NCBI RefSeq assembly: GCF_036373705.1
Contig: NW_027102663.1
Span: 434,001-498,000 of the forward strand
DNA: 64,000 nt
Direction of reading: 5' to 3'
From: Amia ocellicauda
Taxonomy: Eukaryota; Chordata; Actinopteri; Amiiformes; Amiidae
Made by a program: the position numbers and the translations under genes. This document shows, piece by piece, positions 1-64,000 of the stretch. Each line of letters begins with the position of its first letter. Positions within the stretch are counted from its first letter, which is position 1. The notes below the pieces were generated by a model. It saw only the letters and a list, made by a program, of their open reading frames with translations, ran no database searches and was not told the origin of the DNA.

Positions 1-694
1 CTGTTATAAACGGCTCCTTTTTCAGCTCCAGCAAAATCTCATCTATGATTTTCTGGACTTGTCCCGCAGTGACATGTATGTGGGAGTAAGACAGCGCCTT
101 GATTAGTGCCGGTTTCAGCCACGGTTTGTTCAGTCTTCTGTAAAACACGTTGAAATAGAACAGGAAATAGTAACGGTCTGGTTCAAACAAACAACTGTGT
201 CTCAACTGACTGGGGTGATTCACTTCACACCCCCGACAGACTTCTTTCAGAGCTCGGTCGATGAGAGCACTCAGAATATACACCAGGGTGCTTTTAACTA
301 CTCTGCTTACTTGGTCACATACCCCGGGCATAAATCCTGCGTATTCATCACGCCCCCGGGACAGTCCGATGCTCATTGGGTCGCCTGGTGGTTTGTGGGG
401 TGTTTCTACATCCATTGGACTGACCCCCTCCTGAGACGCACAGACGGTAGACAGTTCGGCAAAATCGAGGCCCTCCATGAGCTCCAGAGGCTGGGGATCC
501 CCGAGACTCATTTGGACATCTATCGCACCGCATGTTGTTTCGTCCTGAGGGACCGGGGTCTGAGGTCTTGGAGGGTAACCGCAGTCAGAGGGTTCCGGAG
601 TATATACAAAATCTGGGGAATAGAACCAGGGGTGATCCCGGGTTTGATGAGGCCTGTAGAGCCTGTCGACGTCCGCAGCTTTCGGGTAAGACAT
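1..694 (-). pseudogene. Accessory protein with Cys/His motif, E0 (partial at window edge)
   Basis: Part of fossil E0, cut by the window edge. It is the counterpart of 33247-34095 in E2, where the protein is described. Confidence 0.8.
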
Positions 695-789
695 TCTCTT
701 TAATTTTAAACCATGAATGAATTGTTGCGCCTTTTATCCTATCTCTTCACTACGTCACGACACACCGCCCTCTTAGAAGAGAGTAGCCC

Positions 790-1305
790 CTGAGCCGTCA
801 GACGGCGTCAAACATAATTTCAGTAACCTGTTTTTCTGGATCCTCCACACCCCCTTCAATAGGGTTTGTAATCAGGGTACTGCTAAACAAAACCTTACGA
901 TCTGTAGTTAGAGATAGACTCTTCACCACTCTACCATAGTTCTGCAAGCTTTCCCATTCACCACCTTTCAAAACCCTGAGTCGGAGACTCCATTTTGCAT
1001 TCTCTTGGACCCTCTTGCAAGCCTTCTAGAGTCTTATCCACAAGCCCCAGATCTCTCCAGGCCATCACCTTCAACCAGTCCTCATAAGAGTATTCAATTA
1101 CCGTCTCAAAAGATTCCAACGTACCCTCCTTCTCTCCCAAAGCAAAAAGCTCCACTCCAACATAGCTGGGATCCCTTTTAAAGCGGTAACCCCGTCGAGC
1201 CCCCCAGAACAACACCCAGGAGCGTTCAATCTTTAAATTGGTGAGTACAGGAACCCTTGCCCGGGATTGTTTCTTGCGGGGTTTCATGTTGATGTCGCTG
1301 GACAT
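790..1305 (-). pseudogene. Terminal accessory gene remnant, E0
   Basis: Remnant of the outermost - strand gene of the element, matching the N-terminal part of the gene at 34174-34884 in E2. Function is not recognised. Part of a broken fossil. Confidence 0.6.
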
Positions 1306-1423
1306 GTTGAAGAAGCGGGATGTTTCTGATGCTGAGAATTAAAGAGGTATTGCCTAAAAGCAGCGCGGGTTCTTAAATAGAGAGGAGAGTTTCGGGGCAT
1401 TACCTTCAGAGGGGTGGGGGTAT

Positions 1424-1608
1424 TTATGGGTGGCCTTGTTGTTCAGGGTTTTATGGGTGTACACTTTCTGACGGATATGACGTAGGAATAATTAAGGAAA
1501 TAACTCTACCTAAAATCACGCCCCCCAATTACGACGTAGGAATATTAATAAGCTTAGGGCATACATCATAACAAAATAGGCCGCGCCCAAAAAACCCTAC
1601 TATCTACT
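1424..1608. repeat. Right terminal inverted repeat of E0
   Basis: This 185-bp stretch is the inverted counterpart of the left terminus of E2 (18739-18923). It ends in CTACT, followed by the target-duplication sequence CTTATG. It contains three TACGTCA/TGACGTA-like motifs. Confidence 0.92.
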
Positions 1609-1850
1609 CTTATGTAGTTGAAGGCGCAGTATAGCTCTGATAGTCTGGTGGTGACGGAAGACCACCAGCCGTTTGAACAAGCCATTCAGCATCACCTTGT
1701 TGGGCTAAGTGCAGGCACTGTCAGAGCGCAGGGCGACCTGCCTTTGAAAGAGTTTCCTAAGTGTCCCGAAATCGGTGCACTGAGAGCGTCCGTCCGTCGA
1801 CAGGTTGAAATTGTAAACGCGGGTGTAGCCACTTTTAATTAAAATCTGAT

Positions 1851-1930
1851 GATGATGATGATGATGATGCTGTTCTTGCTGTTGTTCTTGTTGTTCTTGT
1901 TGTCGTCGTGGTCGCTGTCATTATTATTGT
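1851..1930. repeat. (GAT)n/(GTT)n microsatellite in spacer 1
   Basis: A run of GAT repeats passes into imperfect GTT/CTT repeats at the end of the A half. Its length varies between repeat units, as expected for a slippage-prone tract. Confidence 0.8.
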
Positions 1931-2260
1931 TAAAGTAAAGCAGTAGATAGATTTGTTGCTACCGTAAGGTGTAGAAGGCACAATAGCTCTGTGATTGTCT
2001 GATGGTGGCACAAGACGAGCAGCAGCTGTTTGAACAAGCCATTGAGCATCACCTTGTTGGGGTAAGTGTAAGTCTTGTCATAGCTCAGGGCGTTCTTCCT
2101 TTGAAAGAGTTTCCAAAGTGTCCTGATGTGCCTTTGAGCAATGCAAAATAGGTCAGTGAAAATAGAAACCATTATCTCACAGGCTGGCCCACGGGAAACG
2201 CCTGTGCGTGTTTTACCAGCCTGCTTCGATGGAAGCCATTCGAAACGCCAGGACGGGTTG

Positions 2261-2333
2261 GTTTCCGTAGTGTAGTGGCTATCACGTTCGCCTCACACGC
2301 GAAAGGTCCCCGGTTCGAAACCGGGCGGAAACA
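2261..2333 (+). tRNA. tRNA-Val (anticodon CAC)
   Basis: A 73-nt tRNA. The acceptor stem GTTTCCG pairs with CGGAAAC, with discriminator A. The anticodon stem TTCGC/GCGAA encloses the loop CTCACAC (anticodon CAC, decoding GUG). The T arm is CCCGG-TTCGAAA-CCGGG, which also forms the Pol III B box. The D loop has GGCT where the common vertebrate sequence has GGTT, a difference shared by all CAC copies here. There is no CCA in the DNA, as expected for a eukaryote. The first T4 run (candidate Pol III terminator) starts at 2402, rather far downstream. It looks functional. Confidence 0.95.
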
Positions 2334-2874
2334 ACCCGCGGTGCACGCGTGCCAGTACCGTGTTACCCGTCCTCATCTCCCTGCCCCAAGGCCGGCCGTC
2401 GTTTTCTCTTCCTCGGAGTGGCAAGAAATCCTGACCTTGAGAACAATCGATCGCAGAAGGGTAGCTTTGCGAGGCGCTGGAACTGACACTTTTAAAATCG
2501 ATACATCTTGTTACTGTTACAATACGACCGTAGCAGGATCGGCGACATTGCTGTTACTCTTATGTAGTTGAAGGCGCAGTATAGCTCTGATAGTCTGGTG
2601 GTGACGGAAGACCACCAGCCGTTTGAACAAGCCATTCAGCATCACCTTGTTGGGCTAAGTGCAGGCACTGTCAGAGCGCAGGGCGTCCTGCCTTTGAAAG
2701 AGTTTCCGAAGTGTCCTGATGTGCCCTTTAGCAATGCCAAACAGGTCTGTGAAAATGGCATCCTTTCGCGGCACTTCAGACGCCATCTCACAGTCTAGCC
2801 GACCTGAAATTCCTGAGCCCGTTTTACCAGCAGGCTTCAACGATAACCGTTTGAAGCAAGACGCCACGTTGTCA

Positions 2875-2947
2875 GTTTCCGTAGTGTAGCGGTTATCACG
2901 TTCGCCTAACGCGCGAAAGGTCCCCGGTTCGAAACCGGGCGGAAATA
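2875..2947 (+). tRNA. tRNA-Val (anticodon AAC)
   Basis: A 73-nt tRNA with anticodon loop CTAACGC (AAC; A34 would be read as inosine), canonical D-loop GGTT and intact T arm TTCGAAA. The last acceptor pair is G-T instead of G-C, which is tolerable. A TTTT terminator lies about 20 nt downstream (2967-2970). It looks functional, with small departures from the common vertebrate sequence. Confidence 0.93.
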
Positions 2948-3226
2948 GCCTGCTGTGGGCCGGCCCTTTTCGTCCTGCTTGCCCTCGTGGTTCCCCGGAG
3001 GCGGTGGGTGGCTTTTCTTCATTGGAGTGCCCGAAATCGGTGCACTCAGAGCGTCCGTCTGTAGACAGGTTGAAATTGTAAACACTGGTGTAGCCACTTT
3101 TAATTAAAATCTGATGATGTTGTTGTTGTTGTTCTTGTTGTTGTTCTTGTTGTCATCGTGGTCGCCGTCATTATTATTGTTAAAGTAAAGCAGTAGTTAG
3201 ATTTGTTGCTACCGTAAGGTGTAGAA

Positions 3227-3728
3227 GACAACAGTAGGTATGGCGTGTGGTATCAAAACATTCAGAATACTTTTAACGTATATAATTTATAAGCTTTGTA
3301 AAATAAACCCAAATATCTCTTTTGCGGGGATAAACGCTGTTCTGAGTAGTTTGTGACTTGTTTAATACCAAACAAAGCATCGCTATAAAAAAAAAAAAAA
3401 AAATCACTGTAAAAGCGCTAGTTATTTTTGATCTTTATGCTTATTTTCTAGGCTCAGGTTGTTTTTTAGCGCTTATAAAGGCCTGAAATATTCTTAGTGG
3501 TTGTTGACTATAGGTCTTGATGCTTAAAAATGTTTTTTTGAGAGACCAAAAGGTTCTAATAAAAGTTTAGAGTAGAGAGGAGAGAGATCGTCTCCATCTT
3601 GGTTTCTATGTGAAATTTGATGCAGTGTCATCTTATTGGTTGGTTTTGATATGTTAATTGGTAACAGGGCGGCACAAAGGCCAGACCAGAACAATGCCTT
3701 ACAAGCAGATCCGGCATGTGGCCATCAG
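3227..3728. other. Left-arm non-coding remainder, E1
   Basis: AT-rich non-coding sequence matching the inner left arm of E2 (from about 19609), including an A-homopolymer near 3388. No gene is visible. Confidence 0.8.
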
Positions 3729-3736
3729 TATAAGTA
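3729..3736 (+). promoter_or_regulatory. TATA-like box of the left accessory gene, E1
   Basis: TATAAGTA lies about 70 bp upstream of the first candidate exon and is conserved in the other copies. Confidence 0.5.
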
Positions 3737-3801
3737 TGAAGGTCTGGTCTTCAGCTCGACAGACTCATGCTGACCTTTCGATTTAAGACTAAAGATCAAC
3801 A

Positions 3802-5843
3802 ATGTCCGGAAACAACATCAGCGATTCGATTTAAACGAGTTTTTAGGCAAGTCTTCAGATTCTTTTCATTGACTCAGAGCGTGTTGTGTGCATGTATTGT
3901 AAATAAGGCTATAACATCTGTTTTAAGTTCTGTAAAATTATTTTTCAGCCAGTCAACAGGAGTTAATTCCCAACGCTGAGGAGATCATCTGGAACAACGA
4001 CGGTAAGATTTTTGTGTTTGCGCTCATGGGTTCTTATGCATGGGTGTGTGTGGTTTTGAAGCGGCTCATTAGAGTTATGAAAACGTTTTAATATATATTA
4101 ATGCCGGTCTCTTTAATTACACAGAAACTATCGAAAGGCCTGTGATTAATGTCTCCGAGGATCGACCAAGAGAAGTGGTTGTCCCTAGACAGGCTGTCTG
4201 CCGACCGGGTAAGAACTAAACCCCTGTTTGTTTGTATAACGTTTCTGTAAGATGTTTGAGTCCAGTTTTGTTAATTTTAAAAAATTATCCTGTCTAACAG
4301 TATTAAGAAACGTGGTTCGAGACAACGAAAGGCCTTCCACATCGAGGGCTTGTTTCGTTTTACCTTCGAGAACCGTAACCTTTCAAGAATCTGAAAGGCC
4401 GTCAGCCCCGGTATCTGATAGCTGTGAGTATATATCTGCAGCCTGTAAGAGGTTAAAGCTTTTTATAAAGCGGTGTGGTTAAAGGTTAAACATGTCTCTT
4501 ACCTTCACAGCGGTGCAAAAAGCTAAACCAGCCGAAAAACATAAGAAACGATTATTCTGTGGAGGTAAGTAAGATCTTTCAAACTTTAATGTTTTTAAAA
4601 GGGCTTTGTTTGCCCGTTGAGGGCTAATATTTAAGCGATGGGTGACCGTTTCCTGTAGGGCGGGGGGTTCTGGGAAAGATCTTTAGAAGTCCGGACAGGT
4701 CTATGCTTGTTTCTGGGGAACGTGTTTAGAAATGACCGATTGCCGTACCGTCTGGTTAGGAAGTAAAGCCGTCCGAAAGGGTTTAGTAAGTTGTTTGGCT
4801 TATCTCCCGCTATTATACTTCTGTTTTAAAGTGGTTGTAGGAAAAGGCTTGAAGGTGTTCATTGTATTTAATATTTAAACAGATCGTGAAAACGTTTGTG
4901 AAACAGGAAGTCCCGAGATCAGGAAGCGTTTACACTTGGAAGGTTCGTTTAAAAATGAAATGTTGTTGTGTGTGTGTGTGTTTTATTAACAATATTACAG
5001 TTTTTAAAGAAACATTTAAGAAACAGTTTATTTACAGCGGCTTCTCTGTTTTAAATTTATTATCAAGTCCTAATAAATATATTGTCTGTAAATAATAAGG
5101 CGTTGTAGTGAATGTCTAAGGCTATTTTCAAAGGTCTAAAAAAGCTAAAGGTTTTGAATGTCCTGGACATGTTGTTTTAAGTTTGATTTCTGTCGCCGTT
5201 TAAAGATGTAAATGTAATGTATATTTTTATTCTTCCCAAGACTCTTGGGATAGTCATTCTGTGAATGAGCTATTGAGGACAATTACCCCGTCTAAGTGGG
5301 ATCAAACATCTTTCCCGGTGAGATCACCGAGAGGATCCCCCACGGTGGTCTTGGAGACCCCCCAACATCTACTCAGGCCACAGCCTTCTGGGGGTAATTC
5401 AACACCCCAGATTCAGCCCGCCGCATTGTCGGGCGGAACAAATACAGGCATCCAACAACCTCAGGGGTCGCCGTCAGTCAGGGCTGACACACCACCCAAC
5501 GACGGCCTAGTTTCAACATCGTCCCCCCAGACCCGTTTCTTGGCTACCGAAACGCGGAACAGTAACCCCGCGCTTGGCCAGGGTGTCACCGCAAAGGCCT
5601 TCTTGGTCTCCGTCCATGAGTATACACTCGCTCCTTGCCTCCTTCGACCGAGATTTACCGGAGCGACCATCCTTTGAAGCTGAGCCAGGCCACCAGCCCC
5701 CGGAGCTACTTCCTGAAGGTCGGCATGAGTTGCTACATACTTTGTTACAAAATCAAAGACTTGTGTTAGTGGGGCAAAACCTGGTGATAGAGAGCCAAAA
5801 CACCCTTATTAATACCCTTACTAACGAATTGTACCGTATTTAA
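3802..5843 (+). pseudogene. Multi-exon accessory gene region, E1
   Basis: Counterpart of 20185-22219 in E2: a chain of short candidate exons followed by a longer Pro/Ser-rich last exon ending in a conserved LYRI tail. Part of a broken fossil. Confidence 0.55.
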
Positions 5844-5939
5844 TGTTTTAATAGACACAAAACGCCTTACTATTGTGGGTTGTTGGAAAAATAAAAAATA
5901 AATTAAAAAATGTCCTGACTTGGTAAAAGAACTCACAAA

Positions 5940-7861
5940 CTAAAGGATTATGAACAAGCTAGGGCCCCAAAAAGACCTTCCCGAGAGAACATCCCCGGCC
6001 CTGTTGTGAACTCCTCTGATGTCCCAATGAACCTGGAACTATTACAAATGATAAATGATTTAAATAACCCCCAATTACCACCGATAGAATGTGAATTAAC
6101 AGACTTACCGGTGAACCCCGACCTGTTACAGATGGTCAATGATCTAAATAACCACCTCCCACCGGTAGCGCTTATAGAGGTTCACCCCCTAGTTCACCCC
6201 GATTTGTTTGAAATGGTGGAGTCTTTGGAGGAGCTACCCCGACCAAATTCTGCCCCTATTATAAATGATTTGAAACAATTAGAACACAGGATGGCGGCAG
6301 AAGCAGCCATCACTATAGAGGAGGGTCTTGACATTAACCGGTTGGATATCTTTGAAGGACTTTTACAGGCTTTCAATGAGCCTCCTCAAAAAGGGGGTTT
6401 TGTAGATGTCAGCAGTGGGGGTGTTCGGAATGTGGAGGGTTCTGAGACTGATAAGGCTGTGGAGGACATGCTCTGTGAGAATGTAGGGGGTGAAGGCTTT
6501 GTTCAAAATGATGATGTGTCCAAGAGTACCAGTGATCCCGTGATTATAGATAGACCGGCCTATAACAATTTTGAAATGATTCAGCGTTTTAATTTTGCAG
6601 AACTTTTAAATTGTGACAATTATGCAGAAATATTTGTCAACATACACGAGGCCTTGCAGAAAATGCTTGAACAGGTTGCTGAAAGGGTCAGACCTCGAGA
6701 TGTTGTACAGTTAGAACTCAGAGGGGATGATTTGTTTAGCAACCTATCTGTAATGCTGAGTGGAGATAATTTAGATGTCTGGCTAAAATCGAAGCGTTAT
6801 TGCAAAGAAACGCAGCCATCTTAGCTGATGAAAGTCTGTCTCTGGTAATGAATGTGGTTCGTAACCCTGAGGGTGGGGCGCTTAGAAGACTGTCGAAATG
6901 CTTGAAGAACGACATAATTAGGACCAAGCTCAGGCAATTAGTGGTGAGTTCCAGTGGGGACAATAAGCTCTGTTTTGCTTACAGTTTAATAAAACTACTC
7001 ACCCCCGACATGCCTGAACCCCAAGCTCTGCAAGAGGCTTTAATGCTTCATCAGAGGGCCGGCTTAAACTCTCAACAGATGGTTGCCTTTTCAGACATCA
7101 CCAAGTTGCAGGAACATAACTGTAAACCCCGCCAAGAGACAAATGTCCAAACTGATTTTAAACAGTCTGTGGGGTAAGTTTGGGGAAAGAAATTACCGTC
7201 TAAACACAACCTTGATTAAAACCCCTGAACAGTTTATAGAATTTATGTTTTCCAAACAACATGCAGTATCACACTTTCAATTCTTAAATGACCACGTGGC
7301 ACAGGTCCAGTGGAGGGCCCCTAAAGATTTCCCCACCAAACAGGGGAACGTTAATGTTTTCATAGCGGTTTTTACCACGGCTTACGCCCGGCTTGAACTG
7401 TACAACTTAATGGATCAGTTGCAGGAACGCACGCTCTATCATGATACTGACTCTGTAATCTTTGTCACCAGGCCAGGGGATTGGGTCCCTCCCCTCGGGG
7501 ACTACCTTGGGGAGTTAACGAGCGAACTAGATCCTCAGGACCACATAGTGGAGTTTGTTTCAGGGGGTCCTAAGACGCATACAGAACGGCTGCGGGTAAG
7601 ACCTGTATGAAAGTTAAGGGTTTCACTCTGAACCATTGTAACAACAAGCTCATTAACATCAAGTCTCTGAAGACCCTGGTAGAAAGTTTTGTAACCGAGA
7701 AAGACGCGCCTCCTCGTGAGATTATTACAGCCGGAAATCAGATCTATCGCAATAAAAAGGGGTACACGTTGGAAAATAGATCACTAAACAAACGGTTCAG
7801 GGTGGTGTACAATAAAAGAGTGTTGAAGACTGATTATACCACTCTGCCTTATGGATATTAG
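5940..7861 (+). pseudogene. Protein-primed family B DNA polymerase remnant, E1
   Basis: A partial Polinton pPolB. The leucine/asparagine-rich N-terminal region and the C-terminal palm are recognisable, with the motif around NSLWGKFGERNY and the metal-binding YHDTDS motif. It is much shorter than the region in E2 and E3 and is broken. It ends overlapping the ATPase start. Confidence 0.85.
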
Positions 7862-8522
7862 CGGTGGTTTTGATAACAGACTTCAACACCCTTTCTCCTG
7901 TATTATAGCCGGTCCCTCCAATTCGGGGAAGAGCTATCTTATAAAGAACATCATAGAAGATGTGGACGCAACCGTGTCCCAAGCTCTTGACAACATAGTG
8001 TGGTGTTACTCTTGCTGGCAACCTCTCTACGATGATTTGGCTTCGAAAAAAAATAATCTGAAATTTGTGCAAGGTCTCCCCGCCTCGTTGTGTGACGATG
8101 ACTTGTTCCCGCCCGGTCAAACTAATCTAGTGATCCTTGATGACCTGATGGAGCAGGCCGGTGACAACAGTGAAGTGGAAAAAGCTTTCACAAAGTACAC
8201 TCATCATAGGAATTTAAGTATTCTTTATTTAGTTCAAAATCTATTTTTTCAAGGTAAAAAAAGCCGCACTATTAATTTAAATGCCAATTATATAATTCTT
8301 TTTAAAAACCCCAGAGATAAACTACAAGTCACCGTCTTGGCTCGTCAAATGTACCCTAACCAGACCAAGTTCTTTTTGGAGGCATTTGAGGATGCCACCA
8401 AAAAACCCTACGGGTACTTGATTGCAGACTTAAAAGCACAAACCCCAGAAGACTTTCGCCTCAGAACAGGTTTGTGCCCGCCCGATTGGCCGGCAGTGTA
8501 TGTGCTAAAGAAAAGGAAATAA
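7851..8522 (+). CDS. FtsK/HerA-type packaging ATPase, E1
   Basis: A 223-aa genome-packaging ATPase of the A32/Polinton group. The Walker A motif GPSNSGKS is at about residues 21-28 and the Walker B-like LVILDD at about 93-98. The ATG lies inside the end of the polymerase frame (overlap about 11 nt), a typical compact viral junction. Part of fossil E1. Confidence 0.9.
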   Translation: MDISGGFDNRLQHPFSCIIAGPSNSGKSYLIKNIIEDVDATVSQALDNIVWCYSCWQPLYDDLASKKNNLKFVQGLPASLCDDDLFPPGQTNLVILDDLMEQAGDNSEVEKAFTKYTHHRNLSILYLVQNLFFQGKKSRTINLNANYIILFKNPRDKLQVTVLARQMYPNQTKFFLEAFEDATKKPYGYLIADLKAQTPEDFRLRTGLCPPDWPAVYVLKKRK

Positions 8523-8528
8523 ATAAGA

Positions 8529-8864
8529 ATGTCTGTTCGGATTAAAAGAAATCTGCCACTTTTGCAAATGTTATTTGAGGGGAGCCCGCGCCATAGGAAA
8601 GCTGTGCTGGCAGGGGCCCCCTCGGATTTGATCGAGACCCTGTGTGAAATAGCTTTTAACATCTTACGCGGTAATATACCCCTAACCCCTTCTCAACATT
8701 CTAAACTCAAAAAACAAAAAGCGGTTATCAAGATCATCACTAATAAGAAGTATTCTATTAAAAGAAAAAGAAAGAAGATTAATCAAACCGGGGGTTTTAT
8801 AGGACCGCTGTTGAGCATAGCCGTGCCTTTCCTAACCAGTCTTCTAGCTTCCAGAGTGGGTTAA
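8529..8864 (+). CDS. Small basic pX-like protein, E1
   Basis: A 111-aa protein with a lysine/arginine-rich stretch (KRKRKK) followed by a hydrophobic C-terminal segment (FIGPLLSIAVPFLTSLL). It is the counterpart of the E2 gene at 27179. Part of fossil E1. Confidence 0.7.
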   Translation: MSVRIKRNLPLLQMLFEGSPRHRKAVLAGAPSDLIETLCEIAFNILRGNIPLTPSQHSKLKKQKAVIKIITNKKYSIKRKRKKINQTGGFIGPLLSIAVPFLTSLLASRVG

Positions 8865-8866
8865 TA

Positions 8867-9608
8867 ATGGAATATGCTCAGAAAATGTTTTTGATCCCTC
8901 AGGAGCAGCTTGAGAAACTGAGAAAAAATGTTGTCGGGCCAGAGCCCATTAGACAAACGGCCGAAAACAACCTGGACTCTGAAATGAATGCTATACAGGC
9001 CAGGGCCGATTTAAATCAGTATTCCAAAGCCCAGTTGTATACCAACACGTTACAGCGCTACCTCCGTCTGGCTAGACAGGGTGAAAAAGATCAAAACATT
9101 TTAACTTTAACCATGGCCTCTCAAGAAAATGGTTCTGGGGCTGATGCGGGGGGTACGGTTGATAAAGATGTTGCGGTGACCGAACCTGTTGAGAGTTCAG
9201 AGGGAGATGTTGTAACGGATGTTTTGAGAAACATGCCGGCCAGAAGCAAAAGACATGCACAATATATCCTGCACAAAATGGTTCAGAAACCGCGGGTAAC
9301 GGCTTGGAATGAACAGGGTGAATTTGTTTTTAAAGGACAACTGATCAAAGGTTCACACGTTTGATTTGTTGAAGAGTGTCACTAGCACTAATAAGGTACC
9401 CGATAGTCGCCGACCTGTAGGCTGGAATGCTTTCCTACAGGCGATGGCCTGTCTGAACATGCCCCAATCCACAGTTCCTAACCAGGAAACGCGACAAAAA
9501 ATCCATCTGTGTAAAGAGGTGGAGCCTGATCTGACTCCGATATCTCATTACTCTGACCGTGCTGAGCGACCATCCTCAGGATCTATCCATCGTTGGGAAG
9601 CTTATTAA
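8867..9608 (+). pseudogene. Conserved coiled-coil-like Polinton protein, E1
   Basis: Counterpart of 27517-28260 in E2, beginning MEYAQKMFLIPQEQL. Part of fossil E1. Confidence 0.7.
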
Positions 9609-9787
9609 TCTCATGTTTTTATTTGTCTCCCCTGTAAATAATGACCCGACAAACAATTTTTTATTTTATTTTTTTTATTTTCAAATGTTGTACATTTATT
9701 TATAACATAACCCGTGCTTTGTATTAGAATTGTTTTGAATAAAAACAAAACTAATGATTCAAAGGCTGTTTTCATTATTTTTTCACC
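9609..9787. terminator. Tail-to-tail poly(A) region, E1
   Basis: This AT-rich gap between convergent genes has AATAAA signals on both strands, arranged as in E2 (28261-28439). Confidence 0.6.
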
Positions 9788-14370: not shown

Positions 14371-14382
14371 GTTCAAAGTCCC

Positions 14383-48839: not shown

Positions 48840-48840
48840 T

Positions 48841-51276: not shown

Positions 51277-51288
51277 GTTCAAAGTCCC

Positions 51289-52137: not shown

Positions 52138-52240
52138 TCTCTTTAATTTTAAACCATGAATGAATTGTTGCACCTTTTATCCTATCTCTTCACTACGTCA
52201 CGACACACCGCCCTCTTAGAAGAGAGTAGCCCCTGAGCCG

Positions 52241-52645: not shown

Positions 52646-52763
52646 GTTGAAGAAGCGGGATGTTTCAGAAGCTGAGAATTAAAGAGGTATTGCCTAAAAG
52701 AAGCGCGGGTTCTTAAATAGAGAGGAGAGTTTCGGGGCATTGCCTTCAGAGGGGTGGGGGTAT

Positions 52764-52948
52764 TTATGGGTGGCCTTGTTGTTCAGGGTTTTATGGGTGC
52801 ACACTTTCTGACGGATATGACGTAGGAATAATTAAGGAAATAACTCTACCTAAAATCACGCCCCCCAATTATGACGTAGGAATATTAATAAGCTTAGGGC
52901 ATACGTCATAACAAAATAGGCCGCGCCCAAAAACCCCTACTATCTACT
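52764..52948. repeat. Right terminal inverted repeat of E3
   Basis: 185 bp, inverted match to 36935-37119, followed by CTTATG. Confidence 0.95.
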
Positions 52949-53612: not shown

Positions 53613-53685
53613 GTTTCCGTAGTGTAGTGGCTATCACGTTCGCCTCACACGCGAAAGGTCCCTGGTTCGAAACCGGGCGGAAACA
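53613..53685 (+). tRNA. tRNA-Val (CAC)
   Basis: 73 nt with intact acceptor and anticodon stems (loop CTCACAC) and T loop TTCGAAA. One T-stem pair is a G-U wobble. It looks functional. Confidence 0.93.
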
Positions 53686-54556
53686 ACCCGCGGTGCACGC
53701 GTGCCAGTGCCGTGTTACCCGTCGCCATCTCTCTGCCCCAAGGCCGGCCGTCCTTTTCTCTTCCTCGGCGTGGCAAGAAATCCTGACCTTGAGAACAAAC
53801 GATCGCAGAAGGGTAGCTTTGCGAGGCACTGGAACTGACACTTTTAAAATCGATACATGTTGTTGCGTTACAATACGACCGTAGCAGGATCGGCGACATT
53901 GCTGTTACTCTTATGTAGTTGAAGGCGCAGTATAGCTCTGATAGTCTGGTGGTGACGGAAGACCACCAGCCGTTTGAACAAGCCATTCAGCATCACCTTG
54001 TAGGGCTAAACGCAGGCACTGTCAGAGCGCAGGTCGTCCTGCCTTTGAAAGAGTTTCCGAAGTGTCCCGAAATCCGTGCACTCAGAGCGTTCGTCCATCG
54101 ACAGGTTGAAATTGTAAACGCTGGTGTAGCCACTTTTAATTAAAATCTGATGATGATGATGTTGTTGTTGTTATTCTTGTTGTCGTCGTAGTCGCCGTCA
54201 TTATTAATGTTAAAGTAAAGCAGTAGTTAGATTTGTTGCTACCGTAAGGTGTAGAAGGCACAATAGCTCTGATAGTCTGGTGGTGAAGGAAGACCACCAG
54301 ACGTTTGAACAAGCCATTCAGCATCACCTTGTTGGGTTAAGTGCAGGCACTGTCAGAGCGCAGGGCGTCCTGCCTTTAAAAGAGTTTCCGAAGTGTCCTG
54401 ATGTGCCCTTTAGCAATGCCAAACAGGTCAGTGAAAATGGCATCCTTTCGCCGCACTTCAGACGCCATCTCACAGCCTAGCCGACCTGAAACACCTGAGC
54501 CCGTTTTACCAGCAGGCTTTAACGGTAACCATTTGAAGCAAGAGGCAGCGGTGTCA

Positions 54557-54629
54557 GTTTCCGTAGTGTAGCGGTTATCACGTTCGCCTAACGCGCGAAA
54601 GGTCCCCGGTTCGAAACCGGGTGGAAACA
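54557..54629 (+). tRNA. tRNA-Val (AAC)
   Basis: 73 nt with anticodon loop CTAACGC, canonical D loop GGTT, an acceptor stem with one G-U pair and intact T arm. A TTTT terminator follows within about 25 nt. It looks functional. Confidence 0.93.
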
Positions 54630-54928
54630 GCCTACTGTGGGCTGGCCCTTTTCGTCATTCTTGCCCTCGTGGTTCCCCGGAGGCGGTGGGTGTCTTTTCT
54701 TCATTGGAGTGCCCGCAATCGATGCACTCAGAGCGTCCGTCCGTCGACAGGTTGAAATTGTAAACGCTGGTGTAGGCACTTTTAATTAAAATCTGATGAT
54801 GATGATGATGATGATGTTGTTGTTGTTGTTGTTCTTGTTGTTGTTGTTCTTGTTGTCATCGTGGTCGCCGTCATTATTATTGTTAAAGTAAAGCAGTAGT
54901 TAGATTTGTTGCTACCGTAAGGTGTAGA

Positions 54929-55429
54929 AGACAACAGTTGGTATGGCGTGTGATATCAAAACATTCAGAATACTTTTAACCTATATAATTTATAAGCTTT
55001 GTAAAATAAACCCAAATATATCTTTTGCGGGGATAAACGCTGTTCTGAGTAGTTTGTGACTTGTTTAATACCAAACAAAGCATCGCTATAAAAAAAAAAA
55101 AAAATCACTGTAAAAGCGCTAGTTATTTTTGATCTTTATAGTTATTTTCTAGGCTCAGGTTGTTTTTTAGTGCTTATAAAGGCCTGAAATATTCTTAGTG
55201 GTTGTTGACTATAGGTCTTGATGTTTAAAAATGTTTTTTTGAGAGACCAAAAGGTTCTAATAAAAGTTTAGAGTAGAGAGGAGAGAGATCGTCTCCATCT
55301 TGGTTTCTATTTGAAATTTGATGCAGTGTCATTTTATTGGTTGGTTTTGATATGTTAATTGGTAACAGGGCGGCACAAAGGCCAGACCAGAACAATGCCT
55401 TACAAGCAGATCCGGCATGTGGCCATCAG
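54929..55429. other. Left-arm non-coding remainder, E4
   Basis: Matches 3227-3728; AT-rich with an A-homopolymer near 55090. No gene is visible. Confidence 0.78.
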
Positions 55430-55437
55430 TATAAGTA
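55430..55437 (+). promoter_or_regulatory. TATA-like box, left accessory gene of E4
   Basis: TATAAGTA in the same context as in E1 and E2. Confidence 0.5.
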
Positions 55438-55502
55438 TGAGGGTCTGGTCTTCAGCTCGACAGACTCATACTGACCTTTCGATTTAAGACTAAAGATCAA
55501 CA

Positions 55503-57543
55503 ATGTCCGGAAACAACATCAGCGATTCGATTTAAACGAGTTTTTAGGCAAGTCTTCAGATTCTTTTCATTGACTCAGAGCGTGTTGTGTGCATGTATTG
55601 TAAATAAGGCTATAACATCTGTTTTAAGTTCTGTAAAATAATTTTTCAGCCAGTCAACAGGAGTTAATTCCCAACGCTGAGGAGATCATCTGGAACAACG
55701 ACGGTAAGATTTTTGTGTTTGCGCTCATGGGTTCTTATGCATGGGTGTGTGTGGTTTGAAGCGGCTCATTAGAGTTATGAAAACGTTTTAATATATATTA
55801 ATGCCGGTCTCTTTAATTACACAGAAACTATCGAAAGGCCTGTGATTAATGTCTCCGAGGATCGACCAAGAGAAGTGGTTGTCCCTAGACAGGCTGTCTG
55901 CCGACCGGGTAAGAACTAAACCCCTGTTTGTTTGTATAACGTTTCTGTAAGATGTTTGAGTCCAGTTTTGTTAATTTAAAAAAATTATCCTGTCTAACAG
56001 TATTAAGAAACGTGGTTCGAGACAACGAAAGGCCTTCCACATCGAGGGCTTGTTTCGTTTTACCTTCGAGAACCGTAACCTTTCAAGAATCTGAAAGGCC
56101 GTCAGCCCCGGTATCTGATAGCTGTGAGTATATATCTGCAGCCTGTAAGAGGTTAAAGCTTTTTATAAAGCGGTGTGGTTAAAGGTTAAACATGTCTCTT
56201 ACCTTCACAGCGGTGCAAAAAGCTAAACCAGCCGAAAAACATAAGAAACGATTATTCTGTGGAGGTAAGTAAGATCTTTCAAACTTTAATGTTTTTAAAA
56301 GGGCTTTGTTTGCCCGTTGAGGGCTAATATTTAAGCGATGGGTGACCGTTTCCTGTAGGGCGGGGGGTTCTGGGAAAGATCTTTAGAAGTCCGGACAGGT
56401 CTATGCTTGTTTCTGGGGAACGTGTTTAGAAATGACCGATTGCCGTACCGTCTGGTTAGGAAGTAAAGCCGTCCGAAAGGGTTTAGTAAGATGTTTGGCT
56501 TATCTCCCGCTATTATACTTCTGTTTTAAAGTGGTTGTAGGAAAAGGCTTGAAGGTGTTCATTGTATTTAATATTTAAACAGATCGTGAAAACGTTTGTG
56601 AAACAGGAAGTCCCGGGATCAGGAAGCGTTTACACTTGGAAGGTTCGTTTAAAAATGAAATGTTGTTGTGTGTGTGTGTGTTTTATTAACAATATTACAG
56701 TTTTTAAAGAAACATTTAAGAAACAGTTTATTTACAGCGGCTTCTCTGTTTTAAATTTATTATCAAGTCCTAATAAATATATTGTCTGTAAATAATAAGG
56801 CGTTGTAGTGAATGTCTAAGGCTATTTTCAAAGGTCTAAAAAAGCTAAAGGTTTTGAATGTCCTGGACATGTTGTTTTAAGTTTGATTTCTGTCGCCGTT
56901 TAAAGATGTAAATGTAATGTATATTTTTATTCTTCCCAAGACTCTTGGGATAGTCATTCTGTGAATGAGCTATTGAGGACAATTACCCCGTCTAAGTGGG
57001 ATCAAACATCTTTCCCGGTGAGATCACCGAGAGGATCCCCCACGGTGGTCTTGGAGACCCCCCAACATCTACTCAGGCCACAGCCTTCTGGGGGTAATTC
57101 AACACCCCAGATTCAGCCCGCCGCATTGTCGGGCGGAACAAATACAGGCATCCAACAACCTCAGGGGTCGCCGTCAGTCAGGGCTGACACACCACCCAAC
57201 GACGGCCTAGTTTCAACATCGTCCCCCCAGACCCGTTTCTTGGCTACCGAAACGCGGAACAGTAACCCCGCGCTTGGCCAGGGTGTCACCGCAAAGGCCT
57301 TCTTGGTCTCCGTCCATGAGTATACACTCGCTCCTTGCCTCCTTCGACCGAGATTTACCGGAGCGACCATCCTTTGAAGCTGAGCCAGGCCACCAGCCCC
57401 CGGAGCTACTTCCTGAAGGTCGGCATGAGTTGCTACATACTTTGTTACAAAATCAAAGACTTGTGTTAGTGGGGCAAAACCTGGTGATAGAGAGCCAAAA
57501 CACCCTTATTAATACCCTTACTAACGAATTGTACCGTATTTAA
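55503..57543 (+). pseudogene. Multi-exon accessory gene region, E4
   Basis: Counterpart of 20185-22219 in E2 and nearly identical to 3802-5843 in E1. Part of broken fossil E4. Confidence 0.55.
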
Positions 57544-57639
57544 TGTTTTAATAGACACAAAACGCCTTACTATTGTGGGTTGTTGGAAAAATAAAAAATA
57601 AATTAAAAAATGTCCTGACTTGGTAAAAGAACTCACAAA

Positions 57640-59561
57640 CTAAAGGATTATGAACAAGCTAGGGCCCCAAAAAGACCTTCCCGAGAGAACATCCCCGGCC
57701 CTGTTGTGAACTCCTCTGATGTCCCAATGAACCTGGAACTATTACAAATGATAAATGATTTAAATAACCCCCAATTACCACCGATAGAATGTGAATTAAC
57801 AGACTTACCGGTGAACCCCGACCTGTTACAGATGGTCAATGATCTAAATAACCACCTCCCACCGGTAGCGCTTATAGAGGTTCACCCCCTAGTTCACCCC
57901 GATTTGTTTGAAATGGTGGAGTCTTTGGAGGAGCTACCCCGACCAAATTCTGCCCCTATTATAAATGATTTGAAACAATTAGAACACAGGATGGCGGCAG
58001 AAGCAGCCATCACTATAGAGGAGGGTCTTGACATTAACCGGTTGGATATCTTTGAAGGACTTTTACAGGCTTTCAATGAGCCTCCTCAAAAAGGGGGTTT
58101 TGTAGATGTCAGCAGTGGGGGTGTTCGGAATGTGGAGGGTTCTGAGACTGATAAGGCTGTGGAGGACATGCTCTGTGAGAATGTAGGGGGTGAAGGCTTT
58201 GTTCAAAATGATGATGTGTCCAAGAGTACCAGTGATCCCGTGATTATAGATAGACCGGCCTATAACAATTTTGAAATGATTCAGCGTTTTAATTTTGCAG
58301 AACTTTTAAATTGTGACAATTATGCAGAAATATTTGTCAACATACACGAGGCCTTGCAGAAAATGCTTGAACAGGTTGCTGAAAGGGTCAGACCTCGAGA
58401 TGTTGTACAGTTAGAACTCAGAGGGGATGATTTGTTTAGCAACCTATCTGTAATGCTGAGTGGAGATAATTTAGATGTCTGGCTAAAATCGAAGCGTTAT
58501 TGCAAAGAAACGCAGCCATCTTAGCTGATGAAAGTCTGTCTCTGGTAATGAATGTGGTTCGTAACCCTGAGGGTGGGGCGCTTAGAAGACTGTCGAAATG
58601 CTTGAAGAACGACATAATTAGGACCAAGCTCAGGCAATTAGTGGTGAGTTCCAGTGGGGACAATAAGCTCTGTTTTGCTTACAGTTTAATAAAACTACTC
58701 ACCCCCGACATACCTGAACCCCAAGCTCTGCAAGAGGCTTTAATGCTTCATCAGAGGGCCGGCTTAAACTCTCAACAGATGGTTGCCTTTTCAGACATCA
58801 CCAAATTGCAGGAACATAACTGTAAACCCCGCCAAGAGACAAATGTCCAAACTGATTTTAAACAGTCTGTGGGGTAAGTTTGGGGAAAGAAATTACCGTC
58901 TAAACACAACCTTGATTAAAACCCCTGAACAGTTTATAGAATTTATGTTTTCCAAACAACATGCAGTATCACACTTTCAATTCTTAAATGACCACGTGGC
59001 ACAGGTCCAGTGGAGGGCCCCTAAAGATTTCCCCACCAAACAGGGGAACGTTAATGTTTTCATAGCGGTTTTTACCACGGCTTACGCCCGGCTTGAACTG
59101 TACAACTTAATGGATCAGTTGCAGGAACGCACGCTCTATCATGATACTGACTCTGTAATCTTTGTCACCAGGCCAGGGGATTGGGTCCCTCCCCTCGGGG
59201 ACTACCTTGGGGAGTTAACGAGCGAACTAGATCCTCAGGACCACATAGTGGAGTTTGTTTCAGGGGGTCCTAAGACGCATACAGAACGGCTGCGGGTAAG
59301 ACCTGTATGAAAGTTAAGGGTTTCACTCTGAACCATTGTAACAACAAGCTCATTAACATCAAGTCTCTGAAGACCCTGGTAGAAAGTTTTGTAACCGAGA
59401 AAGACGCGCCTCCTCGTGAGATTATTACAGCCGGAAATCAGATCTATCGCAATAAAAAGGGGTACACGTTGGAAAATAGATCACTAAACAAACGGTTCAG
59501 GGTGGTGTACAATAAAAGAGTGTTGAAGACTGATTATACCACTCTGCCTTATGGATATTAG
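57640..59561 (+). pseudogene. Protein-primed family B DNA polymerase remnant, E4
   Basis: Partial pPolB of the same form as in E1, with the NSLWGKFGERNY and YHDTDS palm motifs. Broken. Confidence 0.85.
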
Positions 59562-60222
59562 CGGTGGTTTTGATAACAGACTTCAACACCCTTTCTCCTG
59601 TATTATAGCTGGTCCCTCCAATTCGGGGAAGAGCTATCTTATAAAGAACATCATAGAAGATGTGGACGCAACCAAGTCCCAAGCTCTTGACAACATAGTG
59701 TGGTGTTACTCTTGCTGGCAACCTCTCTACGATGATTTGGCTTCGAAAAAAAATAATCTGAAATTTGTGCAAGGTCTCCCCGCCTCGTTGTGTGACGATG
59801 ACTTGTTCCCGCCCGGTCAAACTAATCTAGTGATCCTTGATGACCTGATGGAGCAGGCCGGTGACAACAGTGAAGTGGAAAAAGCTTTCACAAAGTACAC
59901 TCATCATAGGAATTTAAGTATTCTTTATTTAGTTCAAAATCTATTTTTTCAAGGTAAAAAAAGCCGCACTATTAATTTAAATGCCAATTATATAATTATT
60001 TTTAAAAACCCCAGAGATAAACTACAAGTCACCGTCTTGGCTCGTCAAATGTACCCTAACCAGACCAAGTTCTTTTTGGAGGCATTTGAGGATGCCACCA
60101 AAAAACCCTACGGGTACTTGATTGCAGACTTAAAAGCACAAACCCCAGAAGACTTTCGCCTCAGAACAGGTTTGTGCCCGCCCGATTGGCCGGCAGTGTA
60201 TGTGCTAAAGAAAAGGAAATAA
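59551..60222 (+). CDS. FtsK/HerA-type packaging ATPase, E4
   Basis: 223 aa, full length, with Walker A GPSNSGKS. Part of fossil E4. Confidence 0.9.
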   Translation: MDISGGFDNRLQHPFSCIIAGPSNSGKSYLIKNIIEDVDATKSQALDNIVWCYSCWQPLYDDLASKKNNLKFVQGLPASLCDDDLFPPGQTNLVILDDLMEQAGDNSEVEKAFTKYTHHRNLSILYLVQNLFFQGKKSRTINLNANYIIIFKNPRDKLQVTVLARQMYPNQTKFFLEAFEDATKKPYGYLIADLKAQTPEDFRLRTGLCPPDWPAVYVLKKRK

Positions 60223-60228
60223 ATAAGA

Positions 60229-60564
60229 ATGTCTGTTCGGATTAAAAGAAATCTGCCACTTTTGCAAATGTTATTTGAGGGGAGCCCGCGCCATAGGAAA
60301 GCTGTGCTGGCAGGGGCCCCCTCGGATTTGATCGAGACCCTGTGTGAAATAGCTTTTAACATCTTACGCGGTAATATACCCCTAACCCCTTCTCAACATT
60401 CTAAACTCAAAAAACAAAAAGCGGTTATCAAGATCATCGCTAATAAGAAGTATTCTATTAAAAGAAAAAGAAAGAAGATTAATCAAACCGGGGGTTTTAT
60501 AGGACCGCTGTTGAGCATAGCCGTGCCTTTCCTAACCAGTCTTCTAGCTTCCAGAGTGGGTTAA
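60229..60564 (+). CDS. Small basic pX-like protein, E4
   Basis: 111 aa, as in the other copies. Part of fossil E4. Confidence 0.7.
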   Translation: MSVRIKRNLPLLQMLFEGSPRHRKAVLAGAPSDLIETLCEIAFNILRGNIPLTPSQHSKLKKQKAVIKIIANKKYSIKRKRKKINQTGGFIGPLLSIAVPFLTSLLASRVG

Positions 60565-60566
60565 TA

Positions 60567-61308
60567 ATGGAATATGCTCAGAAAATGTTTTTGATCCCTC
60601 AGGAGCAGCTTGAGAAACTGAGAAAAAATGTTGTCGGGCCAGAGCCCATTAGACAAACGGCCGAAAACAACCTGGACTCTGAAATGAATGCTATACAGGC
60701 CAGGGCCGATTTAAATCAGTATTCCAAAGCCCAGTTGTATACCAACACGTTACAGCGCTACCTCCGTCTGGTTAGACAGGGTGAAAAAGATCAAAACATT
60801 TTAACTTTAACCATGGCCTCTCAAGAAAATGGTTCTGGGGCTGATGCGGGGGGTACGGTTGATAAAGATGTTGCGGTGACCGAACCTGTTGAGAGTTCAG
60901 AGGGAGATGTTGTAACGGATGTTTTGAGAAACATGCCGGCCAGAAGCAAAAGACATGCACAATATATCCTGCACAAAATGGTTCAGAAACCGCGGGTAAC
61001 GGCTTGGAATGAACAGGGTGAATTTGTTTTTAAAGGACAACTGATCAAAGGTTCACACGTTTGATTTGTTGAAGAGTGTCACTAGCACTAATAAGGTACC
61101 CGATAGTCGCCGACCTGTAGGCTGGAATGCTTTCCTACAGGCGATGGCCTGTCTGAACATGCCCCAATCCACAGTTCCTAACCAGGAAACGCGACAAAAA
61201 ATCCATCTGTGTAAAGAGGTGGAGCCTGATCTGACTCCGATATCTCATTACTCTGACCGTGCTGAGCGACCATCCTCAGGATCTATCCATCGTTGGGAAG
61301 CTTATTAA
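60567..61308 (+). pseudogene. Conserved coiled-coil-like Polinton protein, E4
   Basis: Counterpart of 27517-28260, in the same state as in E1. Part of fossil E4. Confidence 0.68.
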
Positions 61309-61487
61309 TCTCATGTTTTTATTTGTCTCCCCTGTAAATAATGACCCGACAAAGAATTTTTTATTTTATTTTTTTTATTTTCAAATGTTGTACATTTATT
61401 TATAACATAACCCCTGCTTTGTATTAGAATTGTTTTGAATAAAAACAAAACTAATGATTCAAAGGCTGTTTTCATTATTTTTTCACC
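61309..61487. terminator. Tail-to-tail poly(A) region, E4
   Basis: AATAAA signals on both strands, as in E2. Confidence 0.6.
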
Positions 61488-62060
61488 TTAACACGCATGA
61501 CATCTTTTAAAATCCTCACAAGAACACCCCATCTGTATACATGGCTGTCTAGGGTCGTAAGTCATTGTGTTATAAGGGGGGGTCCACAGTGTACTGACAA
61601 ACTCTGCCACTTTTTTATCATTTTGGCCTAAATCCTCACTGTACAAGGCCATAATATCGGGGTATGACCTTCCTTTAGATCTATGATATAAGAAAAACAC
61701 ACAGTGTTGACCACAAGTGAAGGTCTGAAGACTTTGTACTTGACGACCGCTGTAAATGGTTTCTTGACAGTTGTTGAGCAGAAAGTTATTGATCTTCCGA
61801 GGGAAAGGTCTGAAATCCGGGGGGTTTGCATAGGAATCAAAAAATTCACCACGGTGGTCCTCCCTTAGATAAATAGCCAGCCAATGTTCTCCGGGCATGT
61901 TTTTAGGGTGTGTGTTGATTATGTACATTGCAGGTAAATTCTTGATCTTAAATTTAGGCAGCTGATCGCAGGCGTTGACTCCTTGAAACAGTTTCCGTGA
62001 GCCGGCCAGGGCATTCATGATGTGGTTGAGCTCTCTGGTGTTCATTTTAATAATAATCAT
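61488..62060 (-). CDS. Adenain-type maturation protease, E4
   Basis: 190 aa, full length, with the adenain catalytic set as in E2. Part of fossil E4. Confidence 0.9.
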   Translation of the reverse strand: MIIIKMNTRELNHIMNALAGSRKLFQGVNACDQLPKFKIKNLPAMYIINTHPKNMPGEHWLAIYLREDHRGEFFDSYANPPDFRPFPRKINNFLLNNCQETIYSGRQVQSLQTFTCGQHCVFFLYHRSKGRSYPDIMALYSEDLGQNDKKVAEFVSTLWTPPYNTMTYDPRQPCIQMGCSCEDFKRCHAC

Positions 62061-63309
62061 ACGGAACGTTTCTCCTCTGATTCACCTCAATAATGTTGTC
62101 AAACACAGCATACACGACCATATTTACAGTGCGTGGTAGAGGCTGCTTGAAACGCATCTCCAAACGCATATTGCCCGTCTTCATCAGTGAAAAATGTTGT
62201 CCACACTCTTCATCAGGGGTCAGGTTGAAACCGTACAGGGTGTAACCGCTGCAGTATTCCCGGCGATCGATCAGCAGAGTTTGATCCTTGAGATGGCGAC
62301 CCGTAGCCAGTACTAGACTGTAATATTCACGAACCGCATTGCCATTTTCAAAGTCAGGTTGAAAAGGTCTGGATGGAACCTGCACACCATCGACGTACAA
62401 CGCTATAAATTCCGCGTTATAATGTTTAAAGTTAAAGGGGTTCTTGTTGTAAACCCCGGTAAATGCATCATTATCCACGAGACCTATAATAACCTGTTTT
62501 GGGAGCTGTCCTAGAAACAGATTTTCCTGGTTCATCACCCGTGTCCCTGCGGGGATACTGTGGACTTTCATGTAGACTCTTTCGATCGGGTACTTGGCGT
62601 TTGCCGTCATTAACGCCTGCGTGTGTCCTAGTTTAACCGCCGGGGAGACGGACACTTTTTTCACAAACTGCGAGGCCGATAATATGGTCAGTATATATTT
62701 TTCAGTATCAGGTGTCATCAGACAAAAAGCACTTTTACTACGGATCATTTTAATTTTAATGTCTACCCCGTTGAGCATGAGTTTTTCTTGGAAAAATATG
62801 TCTGCATGGATATGCCCCATTAGCTCAAAGGTCCTCCCTTCTGTTGAAGAGGCCGTTCTTTTTTGCAAACCCTTATTGAGTCCCTCTGGATCCTTGTCGT
62901 CCATAGCTTCCGGGATGTCTTTGAAGAAAAGGCCGGGGCTGAACTGTTTGCTTAGGGTCTCCTCACTATAATTAAGGATACACTCCATCATGGCTCTATA
63001 GGGGTAAGTATTGCTGCTTTGACTAATGAGCCGATCTCCCAGGGTCACATCCACCTGTGAAAACATGGTGGCCACCGGGTAATTGATGACCCCAGCGTTG
63101 GCCGTCTTCTCGATTGCATCGCCATCCTCATCAGTCACTTTACAGTTCATTAAAATAAATGTGTTATTCAAATCAATATAATCCTCGCCATTGCCAGCTA
63201 TAAAAAACTCCAGAGGGGCCGTGTCTGAAATTTCCACGATATGTTGGAGAATGAGAGATTCTTCGTTTTTTGTTAGCCACGGATCTTCGTCGCCCCCTGG
63301 TGGACACAT
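62047..63309 (-). CDS. Major capsid protein, E4
   Basis: Double jelly-roll capsid protein in the same form as E1 (10347-11609). Part of fossil E4. Confidence 0.85.
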   Translation of the reverse strand: MCPPGGDEDPWLTKNEESLILQHIVEISDTAPLEFFIAGNGEDYIDLNNTFILMNCKVTDEDGDAIEKTANAGVINYPVATMFSQVDVTLGDRLISQSSNTYPYRAMMECILNYSEETLSKQFSPGLFFKDIPEAMDDKDPEGLNKGLQKRTASSTEGRTFELMGHIHADIFFQEKLMLNGVDIKIKMIRSKSAFCLMTPDTEKYILTILSASQFVKKVSVSPAVKLGHTQALMTANAKYPIERVYMKVHSIPAGTRVMNQENLFLGQLPKQVIIGLVDNDAFTGVYNKNPFNFKHYNAEFIALYVDGVQVPSRPFQPDFENGNAVREYYSLVLATGRHLKDQTLLIDRREYCSGYTLYGFNLTPDEECGQHFSLMKTGNMRLEMRFKQPLPRTVNMVVYAVFDNIIEVNQRRNVPYDYY

Positions 63310-63647
63310 GCTGTTTCTTCTTTTACCCCCCTCCTCGCCATTACCATGAGACCCGAACCTTCCTGATGCTCATGGCTAGCTGCCCGGTTCATAACATTGG
63401 TGAACACGTCACTAACAATATTTTTAGCCGCTGATTTCAAGTGGGGTCTGGCTATAGCAAAGCCTCTCTTAAGCAGGGGTACGGCCATTCTAAAGAGACC
63501 ACGAAAGAGTCCTCCTAGACCGGCGCCATACATTGTGGGGGCTCCTACAATACCGGGCAAGCCGTTCCCGGCTTGCATCTTGTAATAATCCACATAGGCG
63601 CTAGGATCTACATAACCCCTCGAGGTAGCCATTTTAATAATGTACAC
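63273..63647 (-). pseudogene. pVI/pX-like basic protein, E4
   Basis: Same form as in E1. Part of broken fossil E4. Confidence 0.7.
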
Positions 63648-64000
63648 ACTGTTTCAGGGGTCGAAAATGTAGTTTGACAATAACTTTACCGAAGCGGAAG
63701 GGTACGTTGATATTCTGATCCGATTTTACTTCGATCGTGATGTTGTCAAAGTGGGTCTTTGAGACTGGTACGTAGTGTGGCTTGTCATAAGTAATTGTGA
63801 CCATGTCATTGCTTTTACCTTTAATAAGTACATTTCTCAAAAGGGGGACATAACTATCCCCGACCCTCTGGTGGGTTATGATATCCGTATACACATAAAG
63901 AGTGTAAAAGCCGCCCCACCACTTCTGAGAACCTGCTCTCTGTGTCAGAATAGAACCCTAATATACGCCCCAGTTGGCCGCTGGTTTGAATGCTAATACC
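63634..64000 (-). pseudogene. Penton-like minor capsid protein, E4 (cut by window edge)
   Basis: C-terminal part only, matching the same region in E1 and E2. The N-terminal part lies beyond the window. Confidence 0.75.

Follow-up and report, generated by a model that had tools for sequence, protein, structure and literature searches.

Site-specific enzymes place the transposons R2 (in ribosomal DNA) and Dada (in tRNA and U genes) at a fixed base of a repeated RNA gene unit, and in Entamoeba tRNA genes form tandem arrays near chromosome ends. Here we describe a stretch of 64,000 nucleotides from Amia ocellicauda (C16:434001-498000, referred to as the window), in which copies of a virus-like Polinton alternate with tRNA-Val repeats. 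Very probably, one insertion into the tRNA array was followed by block amplification and unequal exchange.

The human HERV-K (HML-2) proviruses K111 and K222 lie in pericentromeric repeats and were multiplied by recombination of the repeat region (PMC4425911). That system resembles the present one in its virus-derived element, its one target duplication (GAATTC for K111), its satellite flanks, its flank-swapped recombinants and its shared truncations. It differs in being a retrovirus in centromeric satellite, whereas here a Polinton sits among tRNA genes, and in the spread of its copies over many chromosomes, whereas array places were found here on chromosome C11 and on contigs listed after C11 (PMC4425911).

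Vertebrate Mavericks/Polintons are ~17 kb long and have terminal inverted repeats (TIRs), 6-bp target duplications, a family B DNA polymerase (PolB) and an integrase, and most copies are defective; in axolotl and tuatara, hundreds of defective copies have been termed perplexing (PMC8097293). The element studied here shares the size, TIRs, 6-bp duplications, PolB, integrase and defective state, although its terminus, AGTAGATAGT, is not exactly the vertebrate Maverick motif (AG)3 or (AGT)2, and the consulted portion of that work describes neither a tandem tRNA context nor passenger amplification (PMC8097293). On blue catfish chromosome 14, tandem tRNA genes lie near the chromosome end and resist assembly, as they do here, but no virus-like passenger is mentioned in the part of the report drawn on (PMC10071708). 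For cryptophyte Polinton-like insertions, the part of the source used reports no tRNA genes nearby (PMC12220804).

Results

Polinton copies occupy one base of a tRNA-Val repeat

Self-BLAST of the window and reading of the junctions revealed five copies of a single Polinton family in uniform orientation, E0 to E4, and four spacers of 1.6-2.6 kb each, built of tRNA-Val units (Table 1). ARAGORN places all eight tRNA-Val genes of the window inside the spacers, in agreement with the original prediction, made from the sequence of the window, of five copies between tRNA-Val spacers. With gathering scores and fast filters Rfam reported two of the eight genes, and a sensitive search of spacer S0 recovered both of its tRNAs (64.1 and 59.2 bits). 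Short units of ~340-380 bp without a tRNA follow the CAC unit at window positions 17097-17467, 35961-36337 and 53910-54247, so that the basic repeat combines modules with and without a tRNA and contains TGT/TGA microsatellites.

The uninterrupted repeat reads GCTGTTACT-CTTATG-TAGTTGAAGG and occurs as an empty site once in each spacer. E2 and E3 break this repeat after CTTATG, with CTTATG on both sides of each, and all four right ends visible in the window abut CTTATGTAGTTGAAGG; the predicted insertion of both complete copies at the same base of the repeat, and the common sequence at the right ends, are thus confirmed. The insertion base lies inside the tRNA-Val unit; the nearest tRNA gene ends ~220 bases away. 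Orientation is identical in all 19 copies read in C16, those of the window included, and each intact end among them has the same insertion base and duplication.

The TIRs of E2 and E3 are ~185 bp long and start with AGTAGATAGTAGGG. Together with a family B polymerase, an rve integrase, long TIRs beginning AG, lengths within the 15-20 kb range and a 6-bp duplication were found, and by these sequence features the family is classed as Polinton/Maverick.

Shared scars point to block copying

E1 and E4 have a common left truncation, in which the unit start GGTGTAGA is joined to element position 872 (E2 numbering), and two internal deletions in common. The same truncation junction is found to the base in eight copies (b, e, g, j, l, n, E1 and E4) and a right truncation junction, also to the base, in three (c, j and l); further internal deletions are common to subsets of copies. 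Stops are shared as well: among 13 copies the integrase ends after residue 253 in d, f, m and E3 and the ATPase after residue 121 in l, m and E2, and among 10 copies polB ends after residue 63 in d and f. Independent insertions are not expected to give scars such as those of E1 and E4. Neither these scars nor the continuation of the array far beyond the window formed part of the original prediction.

Copying extends across the element boundary. Compared in 500-bp bins, E2 and copy m are 99.4-100% identical from spacer position 17646 across the left junction to ~27600; outside this block, identity is 94.0% and 98.6% in the two preceding bins and 97.4-99.4% in those that follow. In four internal segments the copies differ by 0-2.5%, in a mosaic that shifts between segments. 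Spacings between free sites in the window (14,538, 18,864 and 17,949 bp) are found reversed on C13 (17,946, 18,873 and 14,538 bp), and nearly the same reversed set is present on C11 (17,949, 18,864 and 14,883 bp).

Left junctions also recur at exact periods of 49,621 bp (four times on C14), 67,003 bp (twice on C11) and 103.23-103.24 kb (three times on C11), these lengths being differences taken by hand from listed left-junction positions. The four equal differences on C14 fall among left junctions 373404-490720, and their exact periodicity suggests a very recent expansion of a multi-Polinton unit. Extrachromosomal or replication-based copying, for example through a rolling circle of element and tRNA unit that re-enters the array, would differ from the preferred reading solely in the copying step. 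The exact 49,621-bp tandem repeats are compatible with it, and equally with unequal crossing-over, nothing here separating the two; however, varied unit sizes and reassorted flanks are an ordinary outcome of unequal exchange, and we regard replication-based copying as unlikely. The copying process would most likely be unequal crossing-over.

Dispersed copies use many targets

As with R2 and Dada, the element copies of the array interrupt the repeated RNA gene unit at a fixed base. An integrase with rve and chromodomain that recognised the tRNA-Val unit might have inserted at the same base repeatedly, and the single base and CTTATG duplication shared by the junctions found would agree with this; the chromodomain could in principle guide integration. 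Copies of the family outside the array bear directly on this possibility.

We searched for element ends followed by a base other than C, so that duplications starting with C fall outside the exact listing. The search gave 913 matches at up to one mismatch, array ends included (C counts there as the mismatch), and 15 in a backwards control. The 100 exact places listed are on C1-C11 and C18-C20, none on C12-C17. Among these places 24 minus/plus pairs 14.3-17.4 kb apart were recognised by eye, and both ends of 20 were taken. Perfect 6-bp duplications are present in 19 of the 20 copies and comprise 15 different sequences; by their flanks, the copies represent 17 distinct sites. No tRNA-Val spacer sequence was found in their flanks (~1.5 kb at eight loci, ~40 bases for the rest), and at dispersed loci the spacer search matched nothing but a 22-bp simple repeat within two elements.

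The many different duplications indicate that the family integrates at many targets and that its integrase is not site-specific. In contrast to R2 and Dada, then, dispersed copies use many targets and the array insertion lies in the unit, off the tRNA gene; 15 duplications at 17 distinct sites in 20 sampled copies are not the pattern of a site-specific RNA-gene transposon. We reject repeated targeted insertion as the main process on the strength of these diverse duplications. The single orientation of the C16 copies also speaks against it, and shared truncations, deletions, stops and junction-crossing identity would require block copying anyway, so that this explanation is very improbable.

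Several dispersed copies appear to have been multiplied in their turn. Four family copies on C1 (at 22661271, 22739126, 22903179 and 23046888) have the same left flank, and the three whose right end was examined have a common right flank and an ACTGAC duplication; in this group, too, host duplication has carried a Polinton along, on a smaller scale. Two copies on C3 (46026073 and 46107039) have a common left flank, and in one of them the right target duplication is absent owing to the loss of a few flank bases. Family ends just 4.6-7.2 kb apart (C1:61436304/61440890, C6:42493257/42500140 and C6:43164269/43171419) are probably internally deleted or non-autonomous relatives.

Flank divergence and the number of insertions

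Fourteen array copies, 13 of them on C16 and one on C14, show a mean pairwise difference of 1.24% (maximum 2.54%) over the last 670 bp of the element; their distance from five close dispersed copies is 1.8-3.8%, and 7 differences are fixed between the two groups. The five dispersed copies group in a tree with a support of 0.999, and a sixth dispersed copy lies ~15% away. We dropped array monophyly as a conclusion from this tree, as the fixed differences are peculiar to the five dispersed copies and are no proof that the array had one founder. Three of the five (L064, L065 and L068) have the same left flank and may be one duplicated insertion.

The original prediction had looked to congruent trees of elements and spacers as support for block duplication. 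This expectation holds for the left-truncated copies (n=8), in which flank distances are correlated with element distances (r 0.69, p 0.0008), and fails elsewhere. Several results weigh against a single insertion. In left-complete copies (n=7) the distances are uncorrelated (r 0.06, p 0.50), and flanks are up to 8.7% apart, against a maximum of 3.1% for the elements; the right ends (n=13) show no correlation either (r 0.15, p 0.18), the E2 flank there being just 48 bp. Divergence of element-adjacent left flanks in the first three 50-bp bins (2.1, 1.9 and 2.9%) is just slightly under that of free units (2.9, 2.8 and 3.9%). At the 7 fixed sites, moreover, the sixth dispersed copy has the array state at 4, the dispersed state at 0 and neither at 3. 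These sites do not show array monophyly, and a few insertions at the same base therefore keep a low probability.

Flanks more diverged than elements, and the missing correlation for left-complete copies, would also suit targeted insertion. Another possibility is that the element inserted two or three times, independently, at this base before blocks were amplified, in line with left-flank groups {c,k}, {d,m,E2} and {f,E3} that are 5.3-8.7% apart with elements at most 3.1% apart, and with array monophyly relative to dispersed copies not being established. A non-specific integrase, however, would need repeated strikes on one base in one orientation. Element-adjacent left flanks have element-like divergence up to 150 bp from the junction, rise to 16.3, 6.7 and 6.6% at 150-300 bp and fall to 4.2 and 3.2% at 300-500 bp; this fits crossovers in the outer flanks, although weakly, as free units likewise rise, to 9.2% at 150-200 bp. 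In addition, an 8-bp flank deletion is present in five of eight element-adjacent left flanks and in two of 26 free ones. Altogether, several insertions at one base are quite improbable.

We read the mismatch between flanks and elements as crossovers and conversion within units that swapped outer flanks after insertion; the flank data alone are not decisive. Two further comparisons were set aside. Within one copy, the two TIRs are about as divergent as TIRs taken from different copies, and TIR-to-TIR divergence does not discriminate single from multiple insertions. The right-flank variants do not form one clade apart from free units, since a GACC/CCTAAG variant adjoins elements and also occurs at free sites.

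One insertion followed by block amplification is preferred because of what was observed: one site and one orientation among the copies examined, truncations, deletions and stops common to several copies, a near-identical block that crosses a junction, re-duplication at exact long periods, the recurrence of the window's free-site spacings on C11 and C13, a near-neutral ratio of nonsynonymous to synonymous differences, and diverse duplications with no target specificity in the sampled dispersed copies. These results support the predicted single insertion carried along by exchange of the tRNA array, and we infer that all array copies descend from it.

The array extends over megabases

The assembly comprises 988 Mb in 385 contigs, and the window lies in the 541,252-bp contig C16. 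Element and spacer sequence covers 197.4 kb of C16:1-200000, which holds 14 Polinton copies, each in plus orientation and two of them cut off by its ends; the gaps in this coverage measure 1,175 bp in two cases and 68 bp in two others. The 1,175-bp stretches (C16:98664-99838 and 108309-109483) lie one in each copy of a ~9.6-kb tandem block.

Chromosome C11 (38.0 Mb) starts within the array and leaves it at ~1,057,300, through element-free tRNA units, into other DNA. Its assembled end is inside the array and has no telomere repeats; TTAGGG-type repeats are present at the start of C10, C18 and C25. Array sequence was found in all 19 samples of 800 bases from the first ~1.06 Mb of C11 and from C12-C17 (976,547, 972,357, 936,678, 868,108, 541,252 and 497,696 bp); a sample from the far end of C11 is not array. 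The C11 start and C12-C17 sum to ~5.85 Mb. Since C12-C17 are listed between C11 and C18, and since together with C11 they amount to 42.8 Mb, between C10 (44.2 Mb) and C18 (42.3 Mb), we infer that they are unlocalised pieces of chromosome C11.

Across the whole assembly, exact counts give at least 304 right junctions, at least 158 left junctions and at least 259 empty sites, repeat counts being lower bounds. Among the first 100 positions listed for each type, right junctions and empty sites all fall on C11-C13 and left junctions on C11-C15. The five-copy array originally described is therefore five copies in the window and part of a far larger array, probably of several hundred units. From the density in C16:1-200000 (14 copies and 34 tRNA-like genes per 200 kb) we extrapolate to roughly 400 Polinton copies and 1,000 tRNA genes, based on one assembly and provided that the contigs are not haplotype duplicates.

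Of eight sampled C11 loci, seven match C16 full-length at 99.6-100%, and the eighth at 97.3% in its longest piece; given this near-identity, the total length may include both haplotypes. Such matches, together with C12-C17 having no chromosome placement, might also be expected if misassembly had multiplied a single tRNA-Polinton junction. Neighbouring copies, however, mostly differ by ~1-2% and have private deletions, the window spacings recur in C11 and C13, and C11 passes out of the array into other DNA, so that an assembly artefact is extremely improbable.

Among the array tRNAs, one at C16:187672-187744 is called tRNA-Gly (ACC) and is presumably a mutated tRNA-Val (AAC) copy, and another (locus L024:3536) has a damaged anticodon.

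Features of the window and element genes

The coordinates of copies, spacers and genes are collected in Table 1. Among the Pfam matches of 20 open reading frames (ORFs) scanned, none belongs to a capsid family (major or minor jelly-roll). For ORF 28999-30306, single-sequence structure prediction without an alignment gave a predicted local distance difference test score (pLDDT) of 32, too low for use. A search of viral_contigs gave no relatives of the integrase, and the spacer pattern had no match there. The pairwise ratio of nonsynonymous to synonymous differences (pN/pS) over 10 ORFs is 0.75 (range 0.49-1.27), near neutral.

Table 1. Polinton copies, tRNA-Val spacers and element genes in the window
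Feature	Position	Strand	Details	Evidence
E0, right end of Polinton copy	1..1608	+	Right TIR ~1424-1608	Self-BLAST, junction reading
Spacer S0, tRNA-Val units	1609..3225	+	tRNAs 2261-2333 (CAC), 2875-2947 (AAC); empty site CTTATG 2559-2564	
E1, Polinton copy	3226..16145	+	Left truncation at element position 872; internal deletions in common with E4; complete right end	
Spacer S1	16146..18738	+	tRNAs 16798-16870, 18443-18515; empty site 17097-17102; E2 left target duplication 18733-18738	
E2, both termini	18739..35186	+	16,448 bp; left TIR 18739-18923, right TIR ~35003-35186; genes decayed	
Spacer S2	35187..36934	+	E2 right target duplication 35187-35192; tRNAs 35663-35735, 36631-36703; empty site 35961-35966; E3 left target duplication 36929-36934	
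E3, both termini	36935..52948	+	16,014 bp; TIRs 36935-37119 and ~52764-52948	
Spacer S3	52949..54928	+	tRNAs 53613-53685 (CAC), 54557-54629 (AAC); empty site 53910-53915	
E4, Polinton copy	54929..64000	+	Left truncation as in E1; extends past window	
Family B DNA polymerase gene (E2)	24361..26437	+	Two ORFs, 24361-25578 and 25523-26437	PF03175, E 3.3e-25 and 1.9e-6
rve integrase with C-terminal chromodomain (E2)	31578..32687	-		PF00665, E 7.2e-12; PF00385, E 3.1e-8
Adenain-like cysteine protease (E2), candidate	28440..29012	-		PF00770, 20.4 bits, just under cut-off 21.3
A32-like packaging ATPase (E3), candidate	44698..45369	+		PF04665, 20.3 bits, under cut-off 22.8

Discussion

We propose the following history. 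A single integration of a 16-kb Polinton/Maverick into a tandem tRNA-Val unit, at the base that follows GCTGTTACT, would have duplicated CTTATG. The tRNA array would then have expanded by unequal homologous exchange or another form of block copying, the copied unit now including the element, which itself would provide additional homology for exchange. Copies may subsequently have decayed, lost pieces and been shuffled, and units with truncated copies may have been duplicated again. The outcome would be a composite satellite of ~5.85 Mb at one end of C11, with higher-order units of several Polintons.

The arrangement had been predicted to be undescribed. A virus fossil multiplied as passenger of a satellite is already known from K111/K222 (PMC4425911), and novelty is limited to the Polinton/tRNA partnership and its scale, which look new; no report of a Polinton amplified in a tRNA array was among the matches listed in the Polinton/Maverick and tRNA-array literature.

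The locus illustrates in concrete terms how broken virus-like elements can come to number in the hundreds without transposition. This route bears on the question left open for the axolotl and tuatara Mavericks in the portion of the work consulted (PMC8097293). Polinton copy counts, and inferences on activity drawn from them, must separate array copies from real insertions. In Amia ocellicauda, host tRNA genes and a 16-kb virus-like element have been co-amplified, giving a satellite of several megabases whose history can be read from its shared scars. A more speculative and unlikely possibility is that the Polinton was the engine of this process: 16 kb of near-identical sequence on a ~1-kb tRNA unit might have converted a small tRNA array into a rapidly recombining composite satellite, today the tip of C11. 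If so, the Polinton would be a driver of satellite growth and a structural part of the chromosome end.

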